A stretch of 42,048 bases of DNA from Chloroflexota bacterium (lineage in GTDB: Bacteria > Chloroflexota > Anaerolineae > Promineifilales > Promineifilaceae). The stretch lies in NCBI GenBank assembly GCA_022616275.1, contig JAKEFB010000078.1, positions 1-42,048 of the forward strand. The letters run 5' to 3'. Below the pieces are notes generated by a model that saw only the letters and a program-made list of their open reading frames with translations, searched no databases and was not told where the DNA came from. This document shows positions 1,758-29,515 of the stretch, in pieces (within the stretch, counting starts at the first letter, position 1; every line of letters begins with the position of its first letter). The translations under genes and the position numbers were made by a program.

Positions 1758-3458
1758 ATGTTAAAAACTGGCGCTGAGATTATGTGGGAATGTCTGGTGC
1801 GGGAGGGAGTGGAGGTGGTCTTTGGCTATCCCGGCGGGGCCATTATGCCGGCCTACGACGCCATGCTGGACTACCCGGTCCACCACGTCCTGGTCCGCCA
1901 CGAGCAGGGGGCAGCCCACATGGCCGACGGCTACGCCCGGGCCTCGGGTAAGGTCGGGGTGGCCATGGCCACCTCCGGGCCGGGAGCGACCAACCTGGTC
2001 ACCGGCATCGGCACGGCCATGATGGATTCCTCGCCCATCGTCTGCATCACCGGCCAGGTCCCGGTCCACCTCATCGGCGGGGACGCTTTCCAGGAAACGG
2101 ACGTGACCGGCATTACCCTGCCCATCACCAAGCACAACTTCCTGGTTACCAGCGCCGGCGAAATGGCCGAAGTCGTCCGCGAGGCGTTTTACATCGCCCG
2201 CAGCGGCCGGCCCGGCCCAGTGCTCATTGACATCTGCAAAAATGCCCAGGTGGAAAAGGTCGAGTTTATCTACCCGGACGACCCGCAACTACCCGGCTAC
2301 CACCCGCCCAAACACGCCCCCCTGGAAGCATTACAAAAAGCGGCCCGGCTGATTGCCGAAGCGGAACGGCCGGTCATCCTGGTTGGCCACGGCGCGCTCA
2401 AGTCGGGGGCCATCGAAGAGCTGCGCCTCTTTGCCGCCAAGACGCAAACGCCCGTGGCCATGACGCTGCTGGGCCTGGGCTCCTTTCCCGCCTCCCACCC
2501 CCTCAGCCTGGGCATGATGGGTATGCACGGCGAGGCCTACTGCAACAACGCCATCCAGCAGGCCGACCTGTTGCTGGCCTTTGGCATGCGCTTCGATGAC
2601 CGGGTGACCGGCAACCTGCGCACCTACGCCCCCCGGGCCCGCAAAATCCATGTCGAAATTGACCCTTCAGAAATCCACAAAAACGTTCCCGTAGACGTGC
2701 CCCTGGTCGGCGATTTGAAGACGGTGCTGGGTGACCTGCTGCCCCTGGTGGGAGCGGGCGACCACGAAGAGTGGTTGGACCAGATTGCCGACTGGAAGAA
2801 GGATACTGAAGAGCGGGACATCCTGGCCTGGCCGGAAGACGGCCTGCTCTACTCTTCCCACGTCATTCGCGACCTGTGGCAATTCACCGGCGGCCAGTCC
2901 ATCGTCACCACCGACGTCGGCCAGCACCAGATGTGGGCCGCCCAGTACTACCACCTGGAGCAGCCTTACCACTTCATTACCTCCGGCGGCGCAGGCACGA
3001 TGGGCTTTGGCATGCCGGCCGCCATTGGCGCGTGGTTTGCCCACAAGGACCGTGAAATCTGGGCCATCGTCGGCGATGGCGGCTTCCAGATGACCCAGGC
3101 CGAGCTGGCCACAGCCGTCCAGGAGCAGGCCAACGTCAAGGTGGCCATTCTCAACAACAGCTACCTGGGCATGGTCCGCCAGTGGCAGGAATTTTTCTTT
3201 GAAAAGCGCTATTCGGCTGTCCACCTGAAGAACCCTGATTTCGTCAAGCTGGCCGAAGCCTACGGCATTCCCGCCCGGCGGGTGACCCAACGGGAGGAGA
3301 TTCAAGCGGCCGTAGAGTTTGCCCGGCGGACCCCCGGCCCGGTGGTGCTGGAATTTGTGGTCGAGATGGAAGAGGCCGTCTTCCCCATGGTCCCGGCCGG
3401 GGCCGACCTCGACGCCATGATCCGCCGCCCCGTCCGCCGCCAGCCGGCCGCCGCATAA
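1758..3458 (+). CDS. ilvB: Acetolactate synthase, large (catalytic) subunit
   Basis: ThDP-dependent condensation of pyruvate with pyruvate or 2-ketobutyrate, the first common step to valine, leucine and isoleucine. The 566-residue product shows the three ThDP-enzyme domains. The N-terminal domain has the catalytic glutamate (Glu49 in VRHEQGAAHMADGYARASG). A central FAD-type domain follows (LVGHGALKSGA, AFGMRFDDRVTGN). The C-terminal domain has the ThDP/Mg motif GDGGFQMTQAELATA ending in ILNNSYLGMVRQWQ, which marks true acetolactate synthase rather than other ThDP enzymes. ATG at 1758 is preceded by a GAGGAGAAGGG ribosome site. The regulatory subunit gene ilvN lies next, beyond a 129-nt repeat-filled gap. 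Confidence 0.97.
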   Translation: MLKTGAEIMWECLVREGVEVVFGYPGGAIMPAYDAMLDYPVHHVLVRHEQGAAHMADGYARASGKVGVAMATSGPGATNLVTGIGTAMMDSSPIVCITGQVPVHLIGGDAFQETDVTGITLPITKHNFLVTSAGEMAEVVREAFYIARSGRPGPVLIDICKNAQVEKVEFIYPDDPQLPGYHPPKHAPLEALQKAARLIAEAERPVILVGHGALKSGAIEELRLFAAKTQTPVAMTLLGLGSFPASHPLSLGMMGMHGEAYCNNAIQQADLLLAFGMRFDDRVTGNLRTYAPRARKIHVEIDPSEIHKNVPVDVPLVGDLKTVLGDLLPLVGAGDHEEWLDQIADWKKDTEERDILAWPEDGLLYSSHVIRDLWQFTGGQSIVTTDVGQHQMWAAQYYHLEQPYHFITSGGAGTMGFGMPAAIGAWFAHKDREIWAIVGDGGFQMTQAELATAVQEQANVKVAILNNSYLGMVRQWQEFFFEKRYSAVHLKNPDFVKLAEAYGIPARRVTQREEIQAAVEFARRTPGPVVLEFVVEMEEAVFPMVPAGADLDAMIRRPVRRQPAAA

Positions 3459-21242: not shown

Positions 21243-22463
21243 TCAAGTTCGATAGTCAGCGTTGATACTCACGTAGTCGTGCGTCAGGTCGCACGTCCAC
21301 ATCGTCGCCTGGGCCTGGCCTTGCCCCAGGTCCAGACGGATAACGATCTCCGGCCGGGCAAAAACGGCCGCCGCGTCCGCCTCAACGTAACCGGTTGAGG
21401 CGCCTTCCTTCACCAGTTGCAGCGCCGGCGCGCCGGGGTTGCTGACCCACAACGCCAGCCGGCCGGCATCCAACTGCACTCCGGCCCGCCCGGCCGCGGC
21501 CAGAATCCGCCCCCAGTTCGGGTCGCCGCCGGCCAACGCCGTCTTTACCAGCGGCGAGGTGGCAATGGTCGCCGCCACCGCTCGCGCCTTCCCCACCCCA
21601 CTCGCCCCGCTGACCTGGATCTCGACAAACTTGCTGGCCCCTTCGCCGTCGGCGACGATCAGCCTGGCCAGCTCGGTGCAGACCGCGTTCAGCCCTTCGG
21701 CCAAATGGGCCAGCGCGGCCTCATTCTCGACGGCGACGCCGCTGGCCCCGTTGGCCAGCAGCAGCACCGTGTCGTTGGTGCTGGTGTCGCCGTCCACGCT
21801 GATGCAGTTGAAGCTCTGGTCTACCGCCTGGTGGAGCAACGCTTGCAGGCTACCGGCCGGAACCGCCGCGTCGGTCGTCAGGACGGCCAGCATGGTGGCC
21901 ATGTCCGGGTGAATCATCCCCGCCCCCTTGGCCATGCCGCCAACCGTCACTGTCCCGCCCGGCAGCGCGACCCGGACCGCCAGTTGCTTCGGCCGCGTGT
22001 CGGTGGTCATAATGGCCTGGGCCGCCGCGCCATTATCTGGTGATAACCCTTTGCTGACTATGCGAAGGCCAGCTTCAATTTTATCCACCGGCAGCGGCAC
22101 ACCAATTACCCCGGTGGATAGCACAAACAGTTGCTCCGGCCGGCAACCCAGGGCCACGGCCGCCGCCTGCTGCACCGCCCGCGCCGCCGCCAGCCCCCCT
22201 GCCCCGGTGCAGGCGTTGGCGTTGCCGGCGTTGGCCACCACTCCCCGAATGTGGTCCCGGCCAGCGGCCAGCACCCCCCGATCCAGGACCACCGGCGCGG
22301 CCGCCACCTGGTTGCGCGTAAACACCCCGGCCGCCGTGCATTCCCGCTCCGAATAGACCACCGCCAGGTCCAGCTTCCCCGACTGCTTCAACCCGCAAGC
22401 CACCGCCGCCGCCCTAAAACCCTGCGCGCTGGTCACACCGCCGCTAACCACTTTCTCGATCAT
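21243..22463 (-). CDS. argJ: Glutamate N-acetyltransferase / amino-acid acetyltransferase
   Basis: Transfers the acetyl group from N-acetylornithine to glutamate, making the arginine pathway cyclic; many homologues also use acetyl-CoA. The 406-residue product has GFRAAAVACGLKQSGKLDLAV, ANAGNANACTG, STGVIGVPLPVDKI, and the autocleavage/nucleophile threonine Thr190 in KGAGMIHPDMATMLAVLTTD. SVDGDTSTNDTVLLLANG is also present. ATG at 22463 abuts an AAGGA; GTG at 22451 is an alternative. Upstream is a GCAAAGACGC repeat, then argG. A separate GNAT-type ArgA is encoded two genes upstream, so the acetyl-CoA activity may be partly redundant. Confidence 0.95.
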   Translation of the reverse strand: MIEKVVSGGVTSAQGFRAAAVACGLKQSGKLDLAVVYSERECTAAGVFTRNQVAAAPVVLDRGVLAAGRDHIRGVVANAGNANACTGAGGLAAARAVQQAAAVALGCRPEQLFVLSTGVIGVPLPVDKIEAGLRIVSKGLSPDNGAAAQAIMTTDTRPKQLAVRVALPGGTVTVGGMAKGAGMIHPDMATMLAVLTTDAAVPAGSLQALLHQAVDQSFNCISVDGDTSTNDTVLLLANGASGVAVENEAALAHLAEGLNAVCTELARLIVADGEGASKFVEIQVSGASGVGKARAVAATIATSPLVKTALAGGDPNWGRILAAAGRAGVQLDAGRLALWVSNPGAPALQLVKEGASTGYVEADAAAVFARPEIVIRLDLGQGQAQATMWTCDLTHDYVSINADYRT

Positions 22464-22579: not shown

Positions 22580-23845
22580 TCAATCGCGCTTGAACAGGGA
22601 GTAGTCCGGGGCGGCGTAGCGCGTTTTGCCGCCGTCACTCACTTCCATCATCGCCTTGACCTTCATCTGCAGGCCGAAGAGGTTAATAAAGCCGGCCGCA
22701 TCCTGCTGGTCATAGACGTCATCCTGGCCAAAGGTGGCGAAATCTTCCCGGTACAGGCTATGCTGGCTGGCCCGGCCGGCGACGGCGACGTTACCCTTGT
22801 ACAGCTTCAGCCGCACCCAGCCGCTGACCGTCTCCTGCGTCTGGCTGACAAAAGCTTGCAACCCCTCTCGCAGCGTATGGTACCACTTGCCGAAGTAGAC
22901 CAGCTCGGCGTAGCGCAGCGCCACCTGCTCCTTGTAATGCAGCGTGTCCCGGTCCAGGCACAGCGACTCCAGCTCGCGGTGGGCGGCGTAGAGGATCGTC
23001 CCGCCCGGCGTCTCGTACACGCCGCGCGACTTCATCCCCACCAGCCGGTTCTCCACCAGGTCCACCCGGCCGACGCCATGTTTCGCCCCGACCTCGTTGA
23101 GCGCTTCAATCAGGGCGGCCGGGGCCAGCGGCCGGTCGTTGACGGCCACCGGTACGCCCTTGTCAAAAGTAATCTTGACCACTTCCGGCACGTCCGGGGC
23201 CTGTTCGGGTGCGGCCGTCCACTGGTACATTGCTTCTTCCGGCTCATTGGCCGGGTTCTCCAGCAGCCCGCCCTCGTGCGACAGGTGCCACAGGTTGCGG
23301 TCCCGGCTGTAAATGGACTTTTCCGTCTGGGCCACCGGCACGTTATGCTTCCGGGCGTAGGCCAGCGCGTCCTCCCGCGAGCGGATCTCCCATTCCCGCC
23401 AGGGCGCAATCACCCGCAGCGTCGGGTTAAGCGCCTTGTAGGTTAACTCAAAGCGGACCTGGTCATTGCCCTTGCCGGTGCAGCCGTGGGCCACCGCGTC
23501 GGCCCCTTCAGCTTCGGCCACGGCCACCTGCCACTTGGCGATGAGCGGCCGGGCCACCGAGGTCCCCAGCAGGTATTGCCGTTCGTACACCGCCCCGGCC
23601 TGCAGCATGGGAAAGAGAAAATCGGAGGCAAACTCGTCGCGCAGGTCCTCAATGTACACTTGGCACGCCCCGCTGGCCAGGGCCTTTTCCTGCAAGCCGG
23701 CCAGCTCCTTCTCCCCCTGGCCAATATTGGCGCAAAAACAAATCACCTCGCAGCCGTAATTCTCCCTTAGCCAGGGCACAATCACCGACGTATCCAACCC
23801 ACCCGAATAGGCCAGCACCACTTTGTATACTTTAGGTTTAGACAT
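22580..23845 (-). CDS. argG: Argininosuccinate synthase
   Basis: ATP-dependent condensation of citrulline and aspartate. The 421-residue product, slightly longer than the usual 400, has the PP-loop [15 protein letters not shown] at the N-terminus, [39 protein letters not shown] and [25 protein letters not shown] (substrate-binding, given here only as the family signature region). ATG at 23845 has AAGGAG 8 nt upstream. It lies between argA and argJ in the minus-strand arginine operon. Confidence 0.96.
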
Positions 23846-23873: not shown

Positions 23874-24368
23874 TTAACGCAATTTTTTTGCGTCATTCGT
23901 TGCTTCTTCCCTGAATAAATGAAGCACAACCGTCGTCTCATCACACCGCTGCCGGACCGGGCAGCGCCGGCAATCCAGCCAGACCTTTTCCGGGAAGAGG
24001 CTTTTGTCGGCCACCCGAAAGCCGCACCGCTCAAAAAAGCGCACCGCCCGCGTCAGGGCAAAGAGCGTCGGCGTCCGGCGTCGGCGCGCCTCGGCCATGA
24101 GTGCCCGGACCAGCCGGCCGCCCACCCCCTGCCCCTGGACCTCGTCCCGCACCGCCAGCGACCGGACCTCGGCCAGCCCGGAGGTGTAGCGCAGCAGGGA
24201 AACACAGCCGACCACCTCCCCGCCGGCCGTGGCCACCAGCCAGTCGGCCAGGCTATTGGCAATGGCCTGGGCCGAGCGGGGCAGCAGGTTGCCGCGCCGG
24301 GCCTGCTCGTTGACCAGGGCAGTAATGCCCGGCAAGTCGCCGGGAACCGCCGGCCGGATATCTACCAT
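23874..24368 (-). CDS. argA: GNAT-type N-acetylglutamate synthase (short ArgA)
   Basis: Makes N-acetylglutamate from glutamate and acetyl-CoA. The product is a single GNAT domain: IRPAVPGDLPGITALVNEQA, SLAVRDEVQGQGVGGRLVRAL (acetyl-CoA loop Q/RGxGxG/A), then FALTRAVRFFERCGFRVADK and the characteristic tail FPEKVWLDCRRCPVRQRCDE. That tail, with its cysteines, is typical of short stand-alone ArgA proteins in actinobacteria and other phyla, without the kinase-like domain of E. coli ArgA. ATG at 24368 (MVDIRPA) fits homologues and has GGTGAGG upstream. A start at 24416 would add 16 residues and overlap argD. It sits between argD and argG, supporting the arginine role. Confidence 0.85.
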   Translation of the reverse strand: MVDIRPAVPGDLPGITALVNEQARRGNLLPRSAQAIANSLADWLVATAGGEVVGCVSLLRYTSGLAEVRSLAVRDEVQGQGVGGRLVRALMAEARRRRTPTLFALTRAVRFFERCGFRVADKSLFPEKVWLDCRRCPVRQRCDETTVVLHLFREEATNDAKKLR

Positions 24369-24397
24369 CGCCTCACCCAGGGCCGGCGACCTGGGAA

Positions 24398-25585
24398 CTA
24401 CAAGCGCAGCAGACATTGGCCAATCACGTCCACGGCCGTATCAATCTGCTCCCGGTTGATAATCAACGGTGGGCAGAGGCGGACGACGTTCTCGCCGGAG
24501 CCGATAATCACCAGCCCCTGTTCGCGGGCGGCGGCCAGCAGCGGCGCGACGGGCACGGTCAGCTCCAGCCCCACCAACAGCCCGGCGCCGCGCACCTGGA
24601 CGATTTTGTCGGAAGCTAATTCGCACAGCCGCTGCTGCAGATAAAAACCGTTCTCGCGCACGGCCGCCAGGAACTCCGGCCGGTTGACCCGGTCAAAGAC
24701 TATCTGGGCAGCGCGGCAGACCAGCGGCCCGCCGGCAAAGGTGCTGCCGTGGTCGCCCGGCTGCATCACCTGGGCCACCTGCTCGGTGACCAGCGTCACG
24801 CCAATCGGCAGCCCGCCGGCCAGCGGCTTGGCCAGGGTCATGACGTCCGGCGTCACCCCGTAAGCCTGGTGCGCCCACAGGTGGCCCGTCCGGCCGAGGC
24901 CGCACTGGACCTCGTCAAAGATCAGCAGCGCCTGGTGTTCGTCGCACAACTGCCGCAACCCCTTCAGAAATTCAGGCGTGGCCGGGTGAATGCCCCCCTC
25001 CCCCTGGACCGGTTCGACGATGACGGCGCAAGTTTCGGCGTTGATGGCCGCCGCGGCCGATTCCAGGTCGTTAAAGGTAGCAAACGTCACCCCCGGCACC
25101 AGCGGCGCAAACGGCTCACGGTACTTGTCCTTGTGGGTCACGGCCAGCGCGCCCATAGACCGGCCGTGAAAGCTGTCGCTGAAGGCCACGAAGCCTGTCT
25201 TGTCCGGCCGGCCGCTGCTTTGTCTGGCCCACTTGCGGGCAAACTTCAGCGCTGCCTCGTTGGCCTCGCTGCCGGAGTTGCAGAAAAAGACCCGGTCGGC
25301 AAAAGAGTTTTCCACCAGCCGCCGGGCCAGCCCGATTTGGGGCGCGGTATGGTACAGGTTGCTGGTGTGCGTCAGCCGGCCGGCCTGCTCCGCCACCACC
25401 TCGGCCCATTCCGGGTCGGCGTGCCCCAGGGCGTTCACGGCAATCCCGGCCATAAAGTCCAGGTATTGCCGGCCGTCGCTATCGTACAGGTATACCCCCT
25501 GTCCATGCGTAAAAACCACCTCCGGCCGGGCGTACGTCGGCACCAGATACTGCGCCGCCGCTTCAACGATGTCTGCTGCTTTCAC
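24398..25585 (-). CDS. argD: Acetylornithine aminotransferase
   Basis: PLP-dependent class III transaminase converting N-acetylglutamate semialdehyde to N-acetylornithine. Features: YDSDGRQYLDFMAGIAVNALG, FFCNSGSEANEAALKFARKW, LLIFDEVQCGLGRTGHLWAH and the PLP lysine in DVMTLAKPLAGGLPIGVTL. GTG at 25585 is the likely start because AGAGGAGAG lies 8 nt upstream; a TTG at 25615 would put the ribosome site inside the gene. This gives 395 residues, normal for ArgD. Upstream is a GCGAAT repeat that runs into the end of argB. Confidence 0.95.
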   Translation of the reverse strand: MKAADIVEAAAQYLVPTYARPEVVFTHGQGVYLYDSDGRQYLDFMAGIAVNALGHADPEWAEVVAEQAGRLTHTSNLYHTAPQIGLARRLVENSFADRVFFCNSGSEANEAALKFARKWARQSSGRPDKTGFVAFSDSFHGRSMGALAVTHKDKYREPFAPLVPGVTFATFNDLESAAAAINAETCAVIVEPVQGEGGIHPATPEFLKGLRQLCDEHQALLIFDEVQCGLGRTGHLWAHQAYGVTPDVMTLAKPLAGGLPIGVTLVTEQVAQVMQPGDHGSTFAGGPLVCRAAQIVFDRVNRPEFLAAVRENGFYLQQRLCELASDKIVQVRGAGLLVGLELTVPVAPLLAAAREQGLVIIGSGENVVRLCPPLIINREQIDTAVDVIGQCLLRL

Positions 25586-25617
25586 AATCAACTCTCCTCT
25601 TGAGAATAAGGTCAAAA

Positions 25618-25700
25618 ACGCGAATCACGCCAATAAACGAATGGCGCGAATATTTTTATTAAATTCGCGTCATTCGCCTATTCGTATCATTCGTGATTTT
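25618..25700. repeat. GCGAAT-family palindromic repeat overlapping the argB 3' end
   Basis: Words such as GCGAATCACGCC, AACGAATGGCGCGAATA and their inverse (AATTCGCGTCATTCGCC, ATTCGTATCATTCGTGATT) form a long imperfect inverted repeat with outer arms AATCACG (25623-25629) and CGTGATT (25692-25698). The right half lies inside the argB coding sequence and supplies its last nine or so codons and its stop. Related copies: 5280-5320 and 30083-30173. Confidence 0.85.
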
Positions 25701-26449
25701 TCTTCAGTTCCCACAAATAATGTCCCGCCGCCGTTGCCGAGGCCGGCCAGGTTGACAATCCGGGCGCGGTGTACGCCCCGGCCGACCACCGCCAGCGCCG
25801 CTCGCACCTTGGGAACCATCCCGCCGCCGATGACGCCGCTCTCGATCAGCGCTTCTGTCTGGCCGGCCGTCAACGAGCGGACCACCTGACCCTCCTGGTC
25901 CAGCACGCCGGGCACGTTGGAGACGAAGGTCAGCATCCCGGCCGGCAGGGCGGCGGCCAGCGCCCCGGCCGCCTCGTCGGCGTTGACGTTGTACACCTGC
26001 CCATCCAGCCCCAGCGAAATGGGCGCAATCACCGGGGTGATTCCCTGGCTCACCAACTGCCGCACCAGCTCCGGCCGCACCGCCGTCACCTGGCCAACGT
26101 AGCCCAGGTCGGCCGTGGGGTGCTGCTTCTTCACGCAGCGCAGCAGCCCGCCGTCCACCCCACTTAGCCCAACCGCGTCCACCCCGGCCGCCAGCAGCGC
26201 GGCGACGATGACCTTGTTCGTCTGGCCGCACAACACCATCTGGGCCACCGCCAGCGACTCGGCGTCTGTCACCCGCAGCCCATCCACCATCACCGGCCGC
26301 AGCCCCAGCCGCCGCTGCATCTCCCCAATCGCCTTCCCGCCGCCATGCACCACCACCACCGCCTCCCCCAACCCGGCGACCACCCGCCCCAGCCCGGCCA
26401 AAAACCCCTCGTCATCCAACTCATTGCCACCAATCTTTAGAAGTTGCAT
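25670..26449 (-). CDS. argB: Acetylglutamate kinase
   Basis: Phosphorylates N-acetylglutamate, usually the feedback-controlled step. The 259-residue amino-acid-kinase fold has LLKIGGNELD (phosphate-binding lysine and glycines), VVVVHGGGKAIGEMQ, GLSGVDGGLLRC, VYNVNADEAAGALAAAL and the C-terminal ALAVVGRGVHRARIVNLAG. ATG at 26449 (MQLLKIGG) is preferred over an in-frame start at 26479. The last residues after GGGTLFVGTEEK (SRMIRIGE) are encoded by the GCGAAT repeat. No LysW gene is present, so an arginine role is favoured over the LysW-dependent lysine variant. argC lies upstream beyond a palindromic element. Confidence 0.94.
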   Translation of the reverse strand: MQLLKIGGNELDDEGFLAGLGRVVAGLGEAVVVVHGGGKAIGEMQRRLGLRPVMVDGLRVTDAESLAVAQMVLCGQTNKVIVAALLAAGVDAVGLSGVDGGLLRCVKKQHPTADLGYVGQVTAVRPELVRQLVSQGITPVIAPISLGLDGQVYNVNADEAAGALAAALPAGMLTFVSNVPGVLDQEGQVVRSLTAGQTEALIESGVIGGGMVPKVRAALAVVGRGVHRARIVNLAGLGNGGGTLFVGTEEKSRMIRIGE

Positions 26450-26480
26450 CGCACCACCGTTTTTCGCGATTACCAACACC

Positions 26481-26574: not shown

Positions 26575-27582
26575 CTACTCAACCAGGCCCCTTACTTCTT
26601 CTAGCCTAAACATTACGTTCATATTTTGCACCGCCTGGCCGGCCGCCCCTTTCACCAAATTATCAATGGCCGAGGTCAGAATCAGCATGTCCCCGGCCAG
26701 CGTCAAGGCAATAACGCACAGGTTCGTATGGTTGGCGTGGGCCAGCGTAGCCAGCGTCCCGGCCGGCAGAACCTTGACGAACGGCTCATCCGCATATGTT
26801 TCCTGGTACAACGCGCGCAGCGCCCCCTCGCTCCAGCCGTTGTTGAGCGGTACGTAAATGGTCGAGAGGATGCCGCGTGGAACGGGCAGCAGGTGGGGCG
26901 AAAAGATGAGCGGCGGTGGGTCGGCCTGCCAGCAGCGCAGCCCTTGCTCCATTTCCGGCAGGTGGCGGTGTACCCGGCCGATCTTGTACGGCGAAAAGTT
27001 ATTGGCTACCTCGACAAAGTGGGTGTCCTGCCGCGGCGCCCGGCCGGCCCCGGACACGCCCGACTTGGAGTCGGCGATGATCGTCCCCCCCACCGCCCCG
27101 GCCTCCAGCAGCGGCCGGAGCGCCAGCAGGACGCTCGTTGGGTAACAGCCGGGGTTGGCCACCAGCCGGGCTGTTCGCAGCGCCGGCCGGGCAACCTCCG
27201 TCAGCCCATAGACCGCCCCGGCCAGCAGGTGCGGGGCCGGGTGCTCCTGGCCGTACCAGGCCGCGTAGACGGCCGGGTCCTTCAGCCGAAAGTCGGCGCT
27301 CAAGTCTACCACTCGCACGCCGGCGGCCAGCGCCGTCTCGGCCACCGGCGCGGCCACCCCGTGCGGCAGGCACAGAAAGAGCACGTCCACCTCCCCCAGC
27401 GCCGCTTCCTCCTGGGCCACCAACCGCAACGGCGGCGCAGCCGGGTACACGTCCGACAACAACCGGCCGGCCTGCGACTGCGACGTGGCAAACTGAACGG
27501 TAACGGCCGGATGCCGCCCCAAAATCCGCGCCAACTCAAACCCCGTATACCCCGTCGCCCCAATAATACCGGCTCGAATCAT
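26575..27582 (-). CDS. argC: N-acetyl-gamma-glutamyl-phosphate reductase
   Basis: NADPH-dependent reduction of acetylglutamyl phosphate to the semialdehyde. The 335-residue product has AGIIGATGYTGFELARILGR at the N-terminus, FLCLPHGVA, and the catalytic cysteine in VANPGCYPTSVLLALRPLL. GAGRAPRQDTHFVEV and the catalytic-histidine region HRHLPEMEQGL follow. ATG at 27582 has GGAGG 4 nt upstream; an in-frame reading from 27609 would include that site. It is the first gene of the arginine operon and lies directly behind a 270-nt leader with a leader peptide and terminator. Confidence 0.96.
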   Translation of the reverse strand: MIRAGIIGATGYTGFELARILGRHPAVTVQFATSQSQAGRLLSDVYPAAPPLRLVAQEEAALGEVDVLFLCLPHGVAAPVAETALAAGVRVVDLSADFRLKDPAVYAAWYGQEHPAPHLLAGAVYGLTEVARPALRTARLVANPGCYPTSVLLALRPLLEAGAVGGTIIADSKSGVSGAGRAPRQDTHFVEVANNFSPYKIGRVHRHLPEMEQGLRCWQADPPPLIFSPHLLPVPRGILSTIYVPLNNGWSEGALRALYQETYADEPFVKVLPAGTLATLAHANHTNLCVIALTLAGDMLILTSAIDNLVKGAAGQAVQNMNVMFRLEEVRGLVE

Positions 27583-27599
27583 ATTTCCTCCGAACGTAG

Positions 27600-27690
27600 C
27601 GATGAGCAATGAGCGCAGTTGGCAAGGCCAACTACGAGCGATGAGCGATGAGTCAAATAACCTTTGCGTCTTTGCGTCTTTGCGTCAAAG
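27600..27690. repeat. GATGAGC and TTTGCGTC tandem repeats in the argC leader
   Basis: GATGAGCAATGAGCG and GAGCGATGAGCGATGAG flank a 17-nt palindrome AGTTGGCAAGGCCAACT (27617-27633), followed by TTTGCGTC three times (27663-27686). The palindrome shares its GGC-CTTG-CC core with those at 9838 and 22534. It lies between the leader terminator and the argC ribosome-binding site. Confidence 0.8.
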
Positions 27691-27694
27691 TGGC

Positions 27695-27738
27695 AAAAAA
27701 CAAAAAACCCGCCAACCGGTGCTTCGGTCTGGCGGGTT
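27695..27738 (-). terminator. Intrinsic terminator (attenuator) upstream of argC
   Basis: On the minus strand the arms AACCCGCCA (27738-27730) and TGGCGGGTT (27714-27706) pair over 9 bp, with an inner ACCG/CGGT helix. TTTTTTG-TTTTTTG follows down to 27695. It lies 29 nt beyond the leader-peptide stop codon and 113 nt before the argC start, i.e. in the 5' leader rather than after a gene. Confidence 0.88.
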
Positions 27739-27803
27739 CTCGTGTACTTGCGCTGTTGTGTCGCTACTCAGGCAACCCTAAAAACCAGACCAATGGTCTG
27801 GCG
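27726..27803 (-). promoter_or_regulatory. Attenuator pairing segments 1, 2 and 3 of the arg leader
   Basis: On the minus strand segment 1 (CGCCAGACC, 27803-27795) sits on and just after the last CGC arginine codon. Segment 2 (GGTCTGG, 27791-27785) lies before the leader stop, and segment 3 (CGCCAGACC, 27734-27726) is the 5' arm of the terminator. Segments 1 and 3 are identical 9-mers, so segment 2 can pair with either. The 2:3 helix is extended by GGGTT (in segment 2's downstream flank) with AACCC, which removes the whole terminator arm. This is the 1:2, 2:3, 3:4 logic of trp/his-type attenuators. Confidence 0.7.
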
Positions 27804-27851
27804 AGGGCGGCGCACGCGAGGCGCGCAAAGAATAGCGGCCGTTGTTAGCAT
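27768..27851 (-). CDS. Putative arginine-rich leader peptide of the arg operon
   Basis: An ATG at 27851 opens 27 codons ending in TGA at 27770-27768. The middle reads CAPRVRRPRQ, using four CGC arginine codons within six positions (CGC GTG CGC CGC CCT CGC), and a fifth arginine (AGG) follows near the end. There is no ribosome-binding site. A TTGACA/TACCAT promoter is placed so that transcription would begin at or next to the A of this ATG, so the peptide would be translated from a leaderless message. The segment after the arginine codons (CCAGACC) is part of the attenuator pairing scheme. Function as a sensor of charged tRNA-Arg is inferred from the layout. Confidence 0.65.
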   Translation of the reverse strand: MLTTAAILCAPRVRRPRQTIGLVFRVA

Positions 27852-27858
27852 GAGGACT

Positions 27859-27886
27859 ATGGTAACAGATGTAAAGTCCGTGTCAA
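27859..27886 (-). promoter_or_regulatory. Predicted promoter of the arginine operon
   Basis: Minus-strand -35 TTGACA (27886-27881, perfect consensus), 16-nt spacer, -10 TACCAT (27864-27859). Seven nt later comes the ATG of the leader peptide (27851), so the message is probably leaderless. Confidence 0.65.
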
Positions 27887-28018
27887 TCCATTGGGGTTGT
27901 TCAATCTGCACAATATTTTTTGCCACGAATTGCACGAATTGCACGAACCCAATCCGTCAATCGTAAGAAATCATTCACGGGATATCCAAACAGAGGAAAT
28001 TCGCACCGTGTCCCCTCC

Positions 28019-29515
28019 CTACGGCAAATCCGTCTCCCCCATCAAATACCGGTCGCACTCCCGCCCGGCCGCCCGCCCCTCGTGGATCGCCCAGACCACC
28101 AGGCTCTGCCCCCGCCGCGCATCCCCGGCCGCAAACACCCCTGGCACGTTCGTCGCATACCGGCCGGCCGCTGCCCGCATGTTCGACCGCTCGTCCCGCT
28201 CCACCCCCAGTTGGGCCAGCAGCCCCTCCTCCGGCCCCAGGAAGCCCATGGCCAGCAGTACCAGTTGCGCCGGCCAGCGCCGCTCTGTGCCGGGGATCTC
28301 GCGGGGAGCCGGGGCCGGCCGGCCGTTCCCGCCGGCCGCCCAGCTCACCGCCACCGTCTCCACCGCCGCCACCCGCCCCTGCCCGTCGCCAATGAACCGC
28401 TTCGTCATCAGGCCGTACCGGCGCGGGTCGTCGCCAAAGAGGGCCGCCGCCTCTTCCTGGCCGTAGTCCATCTTGTAGACCCGCGGCCACTGCGGCCAGG
28501 GATTGTCTGGGGCGCGTTCGTCGGGCGGCCGGAGCAAAATTTCAAACTGGACCAGGCTGCGGCAACCGTGGCGCAGCGCCGTGGCCACGCAGTCCGTCCC
28601 CGTGTCCCCCCCGCCAATGACGATCACGTCCCGGCCTTCGGCCGAAGTGTACCGGCCGTCCCGGTGCTGGCTGTCCAGCAGGCTTTTGGTGTTGGCGTAC
28701 AGAAAGTCAACGGCAAAGTGGAGACCCTCTAACGGCCGCCCCTCCACTACCAGGTCGCGCGGCCGGGTCGCGCCAGTACAGAGCACGATGGCCTCAAACC
28801 CCCGGCGCAATTCGGCCGCCAACACATCCCGGCCAACCTCCACGTTGGTCACGAATTCAATACCGGCCCCGGCCATGAGGTCTACCCGCCGCTGGACGAT
28901 GGCTTTGTCCAGCTTCATATTGGGAATCCCATACATCAGCAGCCCCCCCACCCTGTCGGCCCGCTCAAAGACCGTGACCTGGTGACCGACCTTGTTCAGT
29001 TGGTCGGCGCAGGCCAGCCCGGCCGGGCCAGAGCCAACCACCGCCACTCGCCGGCCGGTCCGCCGGGCCGGCCGCTCCGGCGCCACCCACCCCTCGGCAA
29101 AGGCCCGTTCGATAATGGCATATTCCAGGCTCTTGATCGTCACCGGCGGATCGTAAATCCCCAGCGTGCAGGCCGCCTCGCACGGTGCCGGGCAGACCAG
29201 CCCGGTAAACTCCGGGAAGTTGTTCGTCCGCTCCAGCCGCAGATACGCCTCCCGCCACAACCCCCGGTACACCAGGTCGTTCCACTCCGGGATGAGGTTG
29301 TTGATCGGGCAACCGGAAGCCATGCCGTTGAGCACTGTTCCGGTGTGGCAGAAGGGAATACCACAGTCCATGCAGCGCGCTGCCTGCCGCTGCAGCCGCT
29401 CTTCCGGCAAATGTAAATGCAGCGGCCGCCAGTCCCGCACTCGCTCTTCCGCCGGCCGCTCGGCCGGCCCCTCGCGCGGGTAAGTCAAGAAAGCAGTGGA
29501 CCTGTCTGTAGTCAT
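28019..29515 (-). CDS. gltD: Glutamate synthase small subunit
   Basis: FAD/NAD(P)H and Fe-S subunit that feeds electrons to GltB. The 498-residue product has the N-terminal cysteine clusters CMDCGIPFCHTG, GCPINNLIPEWNDLVY and CPAPCEAACTLGI. Two dinucleotide-binding motifs follow: RVAVVGSGPAGLACADQLNK (FAD) and DVIVIGGGDTGTDCVATAL (NADPH). The C-terminal NVPGVFAAGDARRGQSLVVWAI completes the FAD site. ATG at 29515 gives the usual N-terminus but has no clear ribosome site. It is separated from gltB by an acetyltransferase gene and two repeats; all three genes run the same way. The gap to the arg promoter (27887-28018) contains only GAATTGCAC tandem words. Confidence 0.96.
   Translation of the reverse strand: MTTDRSTAFLTYPREGPAERPAEERVRDWRPLHLHLPEERLQRQAARCMDCGIPFCHTGTVLNGMASGCPINNLIPEWNDLVYRGLWREAYLRLERTNNFPEFTGLVCPAPCEAACTLGIYDPPVTIKSLEYAIIERAFAEGWVAPERPARRTGRRVAVVGSGPAGLACADQLNKVGHQVTVFERADRVGGLLMYGIPNMKLDKAIVQRRVDLMAGAGIEFVTNVEVGRDVLAAELRRGFEAIVLCTGATRPRDLVVEGRPLEGLHFAVDFLYANTKSLLDSQHRDGRYTSAEGRDVIVIGGGDTGTDCVATALRHGCRSLVQFEILLRPPDERAPDNPWPQWPRVYKMDYGQEEAAALFGDDPRRYGLMTKRFIGDGQGRVAAVETVAVSWAAGGNGRPAPAPREIPGTERRWPAQLVLLAMGFLGPEEGLLAQLGVERDERSNMRAAAGRYATNVPGVFAAGDARRGQSLVVWAIHEGRAAGRECDRYLMGETDLP

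Follow-up and report, generated by a model that had tools for sequence, protein, structure and literature searches.

A probable leaderless arginine-codon attenuator upstream of the argC operon in Anaerolineae and related Chloroflexota

In the window (the whole stretch of DNA that was analyzed, 42,048 nucleotides of a Chloroflexota contig), the region between gltD and argC on the minus strand very probably encodes a ribosome-mediated attenuator of transcription whose signal is charged arginyl-tRNA, as judged by sequence comparison with relatives and folding of the leader RNA. This interpretation had been proposed in an initial annotation of the window, and it gained support from Arg-rich leaders in related genomes, covariation of the pairing segments, codon changes matched to the downstream gene, and the lack of an ArgR or T-box match. 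The anatomy of the leader, its conservation, the covariation of its helices, the coding constraint on arginine, and the gene-matched codon changes can all be demonstrated in the sequences compared. Presumably, argC is the first gene of the controlled operon, and the downstream order is argC-argB-argD-GNAT-argG-argJ (Table 1). The GNAT acetyltransferase scored slightly under its family cut-off (149.6 bits against 154 for PRK07757). A GACGCAAAGACGCAAAG-type repeat was also observed between the terminator and argC (window positions 27655-27689), with at least 41 further matches in the same genome when part of the candidates was scored.

Table 1. Positions of leader elements and neighboring genes in the window
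Feature	Position	Strand	Basis or remark
gltD	28019-29515	-	upstream of leader; name from similarity, family not tested
Promoter TTGACA-N16-TACCAT	27859..27886	-	sequence; same geometry in 42 selected loci
Leader peptide ORF MLTTAAILCAPRVRRPRQTIGLVFRVA, 27 codons plus TGA	27768..27851	-	counterparts in relatives
Arg codon cluster, CGC at codons 12, 14, 15, and 17	27801..27818	-	
Segment 1 CCAGACC	27795..27801	-	pairs with segment 2
Segment 2 GGTCTGG	27785..27791	-	alternative partners: segment 1 or segment 3
GGGTT, extension of 2:3 antiterminator	27774..27778	-	less conserved
Segment 3 AACCCGCCAGACCG	27725..27738	-	terminator 5' arm and antiterminator 3' arm
Segment 4 CGGTTGGCGGGTT	27706..27718	-	terminator 3' arm
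T tract TTTTTTGTTTTTT	27695..27707	-	of the terminator
argC	26575..27582	-	TIGR01850, 389 bits (cut-off 234)
argB	25670..26479	-	TIGR00761 over cut-off
argD	24398..25615	-	TIGR00707 over cut-off
GNAT acetyltransferase resembling amino-acid N-acetyltransferases	23874..24416	-	best NCBIfam match PRK07757, 149.6 bits
argG	22580..23845	-	TIGR00032 over cut-off
argJ	21243..22463	-	TIGR00120 over cut-off

On the minus strand, TTGACA (27886-27881) is followed by a 16-nt spacer, TACCAT (27864-27859), 7 nt, and the ATG of the leader ORF (27851-27849). These coordinates bear out the promoter that had been placed before a 27-codon ORF, and it was the single promoter-like site detected in 27500-28100, where shuffles predict 0.3. 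The site is located upstream of the terminator, and none was found downstream of it within the same interval. From this spacing, the transcript is inferred to begin at the ATG or adjacent to it; if transcription does start at the position predicted by the promoter, a Shine-Dalgarno sequence would not fit ahead of the ORF. The leader ORF stops at a TGA (27770-27768). All four of the CGC codons noted earlier are present, codon 25 is an additional AGG, and the CGC cluster is proposed to be the arginine sensor.

Twin segments of CGCCAGACC lie at 27803-27795 and 27734-27726 with GGTCTGG at 27791-27785, exactly as had been claimed. The second CCAGACC (27732-27726) is part of the terminator 5' arm and a rival partner for GGTCTGG. 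Both sequence and folding place an intrinsic terminator between the leader ORF and argC. The initial annotation had described it as a 9-bp stem with two T-runs; the terminator and its T6-G-T6 tract are real and the stem is longer than that, consisting of AACCCGCCA/TGGCGGGTT plus an inner GACCG/CGGTT with one bulge. This terminator was absent from the output of a simple terminator scan. The leader RNA folded with a z-score of -4.96 relative to 200 dinucleotide shuffles, none of which was equally stable. Codons 14-17 (27812-27801) adjoin segment 1 (27801-27795), and the TGA is 14 nt past segment 2.

As in attenuators of the trp/his type, the leader has a cluster of codons for the operon's product amino acid. 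Start site, translation, arginine response, and folding order in the following scheme are those that we infer. The transcript would start at or a few bases from the leader ATG, and a ribosome would load on its leaderless 5' end. When arginine is ample, the ribosome would clear the CGC cluster and arrive at the TGA, where its footprint would block the pairing of segment 2, and the 3:4 terminator would form ahead of argC. When Arg-tRNA is scarce, the ribosome would instead wait at codons 14-17 and mask segment 1; segment 2 would then pair with newly made segment 3, pre-empting the terminator and allowing argCBD-GNAT-argGJ to be transcribed. If the leader were untranslated, 1:2 would form and termination would be the default. 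The geometry of the sequence is consistent with this scheme, given that a stalled ribosome is placed to mask segment 1 and the stop codon is near segment 2. Taking the general footprint size of a ribosome, one with codon 17 in the A site would lie over segment 1, and one with the stop codon in the A site would reach back to approximately segment 2. Folding energies at equilibrium favored the terminator over the antiterminator, also with the ribosome stalled (-29.3 versus -20.3 kcal/mol), so the switch would have to be kinetic, with the decision made while segment 4 is still unmade.

In order to examine conservation, an ArgC-like protein was located in 53 of 60 genomes (source genome included), 50 loci were inspected, and 37 leader candidates were tabulated. 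A selection rule, composed after the first argC loci and leaders had been inspected, called for a terminator, an ATG ORF of 8-45 codons ending nearby, and a promoter-like pair with the end of the -10 hexamer 4-13 nt before the ATG; it contained no amino-acid criterion. From 129 upstream regions, 7 shorter than 200 nt and 15 duplicates were removed, leaving 107 distinct regions that precede argC or argC-like genes, some of them not from Chloroflexota. The rule was passed by 42 of these 107, including 30 of the 31 usable argC regions (at least 200 nt upstream) from the family and order of the window. The 12 further positives were outside the window's order or in named records; among the named positives were an Ardenticatenales, a Thermoflexales, a Roseilinea, a Caldilineaceae, and several Anaerolineae records.

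An Arg-rich ORF is kept in the related argC leaders, as had been anticipated, and the -10 hexamer ended 6-10 nt before the ATG in all 42 rule-passing regions (the rule permits 4-13). The promoter spacer was 16 nt in 34 of the 42 loci, and the distance from stop codon to terminator was 18-49 nt (median 28). Dinucleotide shuffling of the 42 positive regions yielded only 3 sequences in 840 that passed the rule, and none of 424 control genes taken from the same loci and the window (operon-internal genes included) passed; a chance ORF was rejected on this comparison with 42 of 107 argC regions.

The sole exception in the family and order (genome G024) carries this leader too, but its codon 7 is an in-frame TAG; the leaders of two genomes of the same genus (G003 and G183) do not have the TAG. 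This leader (locus L025, G024:C1 near 3208900) comes from a 3-contig genome and has intact helices and promoter despite the TAG. The 65 regions that failed the rule include Chloroflexales, non-Chloroflexota, and distant argC-like genes, and in some of them an Arg-rich ORF and a terminator were present with a weaker promoter match. No argC leader was found under the rule in the Chloroflexales, Oscillochloris, and Herpetosiphonaceae records listed, nor an Arg leader at the Chloroflexales loci L089, L093, L109, L118, L126, L127, and L133. A leader under the rule was also missing upstream of six more remote argC-like genes (38-41% identity), which probably belong to the lysine pathway.

Coding constraint was examined in the 42 leader peptides, all of which contain at least three Arg residues (at least four in 37). 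Arg accounted for 20.9% of their 994 residues; the other two frames contained 8.0% and 6.5% Arg and were interrupted by stops in 30 and 24 of the 42 leaders. The most constant Arg codon (codon -3) encodes Arg in 27 of 31 leaders, with entropies of 0.66, 0.55, and 1.52 bits at positions 1-3, so the amino acid is kept while the third base drifts. No third-base drift was seen at the codon whose last base begins segment 1 (entropies of 1.25, 0.88, and 0.55), as expected if pairing holds that base. The codon patterns of these leaders show that Arg has been selected as an amino acid.

For the pairing segments, one alignment (A1) was made from 31 of the 37 tabulated leaders, with six distant ones excluded, and a second (A2) from 27 of these 31. 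The covariation of 1:2, 2:3, and 3:4 that had been suggested persists across relatives, and the mutually exclusive helices found comparative support, modest in the case of 1:2 (93.5% paired over 31 rows). Within helix 2:3, the GGTCTGG:CCAGACC core was 98.6% paired, and the helix had 11 double-change cells versus 4.4 in shuffles. The GGGTT:AACCC extension of this helix does exist in the window (27778-27774 and 27738-27734), as had been stated, but it was only 59.4% paired across the 31 relatives. Helix 3:4 was 97.9% paired, and 8 of its 11 pairs showed double changes (27 cells in all), a result matched by none of 500 shuffles; its register was chosen after a slide control, and the window's own terminator carries a bulge.

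Segment-3 arms were then swapped among the 42 genomes, and 2:3 pairing averaged -15.6 with the own arm versus -13.4 with another. None of 20,000 permutations was as good as the own arms, and the outcome for a hand-picked divergent subset of 18 agreed with that for all 42. The own segment 3 was hardly better or worse than the average other arm in several leaders (among them L026, L037, L045, L072, L074, L085, L115, L116, and L134).

Cassettes of related architecture were found before other genes. A covariance model built from 27 argC leaders was run on 249 genomes of the class, 63 of which contained a match at E <= 0.01 (many weakly), and the stretches around 20 matches were read for the downstream gene. 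Gene names were family-tested for L189, L192, argD, argG, and argH and assigned by resemblance for the remainder. Five of the 20 matches precede alaS (L173, L174, L176, L177, and L178). ATG leaders with long Ala runs were read in L174 (MLNVPFKHVNFAAAAQTASLVGIVA, at L174:791-932) and L177 (MNQFSSIIQNSAAAAAGQTSGLDRLCA); the leader of L173 has AAA, a GTG start, and leaderless spacing, L176 has scattered Ala and another ORF between leader and alaS, and the ATG leader of L178 was read as MINFFVIRFSSRAARQTQVWHR without an Ala run. An Ala-run leader in L175 is at a contig end, with the downstream gene beyond it. Arg leaders were found before argD in L179, whose genome has an argC without a leader in the 193 nt upstream, and before argG-argH in L182; L180, L181, and L186 are distant argC leaders. 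Lys-rich leaders precede homocitrate synthase or LysX-like genes in L184, L187, L189, L190, and L192. The matches L183, L185, L188, and L191 look like chance and were set aside.

When the same rule was applied upstream of alaS, 8 of 32 regions were positive (7 of 29 after removal of the three model-derived regions, L173, L174, and L177), and 7 of the 8 leaders contain at least four consecutive Ala; L197 has scattered Ala. The other 24 regions, including that of the window's own alaS, had no leader under the rule. Runs of AAAA or AAAAA were observed in L174, L209, L213, L214, L215, L218, and L222, where the promoter is 6-10 nt before the ATG and the RNA scaffold is the same. The rule identified no leader upstream of trpE in 22 usable regions.

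Residue runs (at least four of one residue in eight) were also counted among the regions having a terminator. Arg runs occurred in 47 of 68 argC regions (Ala in 4, Lys in 3), Ala runs in 8 of 14 alaS regions (Arg and Lys in none), and Lys runs in 9 of 14 homocitrate synthase regions (Arg and Ala in 2 each). The 16 of 18 ilvB regions with Ile/Leu/Val runs are to be read against a class that is common everywhere (31 of 68 argC regions). KKSKK-like Lys-rich ORFs with terminators were seen upstream of lysine genes of the aminoadipate pathway (homocitrate synthase or LysX-like), and Lys-rich leaders also occur at L223-L226, L228, L229, L231, and L236-L240. The Ile/Leu/Val-rich ilvB leaders (L254, L257, L260, L263, L264, L266-L271, L273-L275, L277, and L278) often have a CCGCCCAACAGGGCGG-type terminator and mostly do not have leaderless spacing. 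An ilvB gene is also present in the window (1767-3425; locus L262), with no leader passing the rule directly upstream. A promoter pair scoring at least 8 directly before the ATG was found in 3 of 16 ilvB leaders and in none of the 9 homocitrate synthase Lys leaders examined, although L192 has a Lys leader with such a pair directly before its ATG. Leaderless spacing is rare in ilvB leaders and missing from most Lys leaders, so a predicted leaderless start characterizes the Arg and Ala leaders and is not common to all.

Leader codons therefore usually match the downstream gene, with Ala before alaS, Lys before lysine genes, and Arg kept before argD and argG-argH. The balance tips slightly towards a single ancestral leaderless attenuator cassette in Anaerolineae and allied Chloroflexota, in which ArgR was undetected, that was copied and re-aimed by codon change. 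On this reading, Arg runs would direct the cassette to arginine synthesis, Ala runs to alanyl-tRNA synthetase, and perhaps KKSKK-like runs to lysine synthesis. If so, the CCGCCAGAC...GTCTGGCGG elements shared by argC and alaS leaders, and the peptide end shared by several of them (QTxGL), would reflect common descent, and the cassettes would constitute a natural codon-swap series.

An improbable alternative to tRNA sensing is a stall caused by the nascent peptide or a small molecule (for example, ornithine in the tunnel with an Arg-rich peptide), in which case the signal would not be tRNA charging. The C-terminal part of the peptide is indeed conserved as well, approximately as RRRQTxGLVFxV in many loci, and speF has a leader ORF containing Arg codons, orf34, whose response to both arginine and ornithine is described in PMC6386406. 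However, segments 1 and 2 code for the conserved C-terminal residues, whose conservation is therefore explained by RNA pairing. In addition, several alaS leaders retain QTxGL but have Ala runs in place of the Arg run, and more distant leaders retain Arg with the rest lost.

Control by a protein, with ArgR or another repressor acting on the leader or promoter and the RNA feature secondary, is highly unlikely. ArgR controls arg operons elsewhere, but TIGR01529 was over cut-off in none of the 60 genomes (two weak matches, and none in the source genome) and in none of 29 Chloroflexota (classed by record title) among 33 further genomes, of which two Firmicutes were positive as a control; nor does protein control predict gene-matched codon changes. 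An ArgR regulon was rejected on the count in the 60 genomes. ArgR was likewise not over cut-off in the genomes of the leader-negative Chloroflexales loci, so the absence of ArgR alone does not predict a leader. No Rfam family reached gathering score in the window or in 20 leader-bearing loci, and 11 leader-negative loci yielded tRNA and rRNA matches alone; two weak sub-gathering matches over 27640-27920 belong to unrelated families. A T-box riboswitch was rejected given that no gathering-score match occurred in any of these sequences, and none was found in the Chloroflexales loci L089, L093, L109, L126, and L127.

Equally hard to sustain is the view that the hairpin simply ends the gltD transcript, that an ordinary promoter for argC comes after it, and that the short ORF arose by chance: a gene named gltD by similarity does lie upstream on the same strand and the hairpin has a good T tract, but gltD was identified in only 1 of the 42 leader loci, the window's own (search reach at least 256 nt, mostly at least 900 nt, upstream of argC), and therefore the terminator belongs with argC; moreover, relatives retain promoter, ORF, Arg codons, and overlapping helices together, and the only promoter-like site found is upstream of the terminator rather than downstream.

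The amino acids of textbook attenuators are His, Trp, Leu, Ile-Val (Ilv), Thr, and Phe, and bacterial arginine synthesis is taught as the domain of ArgR. A lineage without detected ArgR appears here to place an Arg-codon attenuator before its arg operon, with related Ala and Lys cassettes elsewhere, which would be a simple answer to the control of arginine synthesis without ArgR. The natural gene-matched codon changes are evidence for the sensing principle, and leader peptides that are seemingly translated without a ribosome binding site could be useful for studies of leaderless initiation. The combination of a terminator, a leaderless ORF, and amino-acid-rich codons also suggests a cheap search rule.

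On features that can be tested in sequence, the predicted attenuator works like, and belongs with, the trp/his type of Proteobacteria. Shared features are a leader peptide enriched in the amino acid that the operon makes, hairpins that exclude one another, and an intrinsic terminator before a biosynthetic operon. It differs in its amino acid (arginine), its predicted leaderless start, its occurrence in Chloroflexota, and the lack of any Rfam family at gathering score; the first three of these are what is new. Leaderless poly-Cys short ORFs of mycobacteria are attenuators whose codons also sense one amino acid, but that amino acid is cysteine and they are not known to have this terminator/antiterminator layout. 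A survey of attenuation (Lopatovskaya et al., 2010) may include related cases. In the titles and selected passages of open-licence PMC full-text literature, no attenuator of an arginine-synthesis operon, or any in Chloroflexota, was found.

A His-type ribosome-mediated attenuator has been described (PMC9413887). Arg codons in a leader ORF sense arginine in speF orf34 of Salmonella (PMC6386406) and in rbfL of Staphylococcus aureus (PMC13009471). The former differs in acting on ornithine decarboxylase through Rho-dependent termination and mRNA decay, and the latter in acting on translation of a biofilm regulator whose ribosome binding site is blocked; in the relevant passages of these two sources, neither governs arginine synthesis through an intrinsic terminator. 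The cysS uORFC-8-2 motif of Rhodobacterales is, like the alaS leaders here, a predicted attenuator before an aminoacyl-tRNA synthetase, but with Cys codons and another RNA (PMC8632094). The nearest leaderless precedent found is the ilvBNC attenuator of Corynebacterium glutamicum, which, in the passages describing it, starts transcription one nucleotide from the leader start codon and likewise combines this near-leaderless start with terminator and antiterminator hairpins; it differs in responding to branched-chain amino acids, in belonging to the Actinomycetota, in its hairpin layout, and in having been tested by experiment (PMC11857589).
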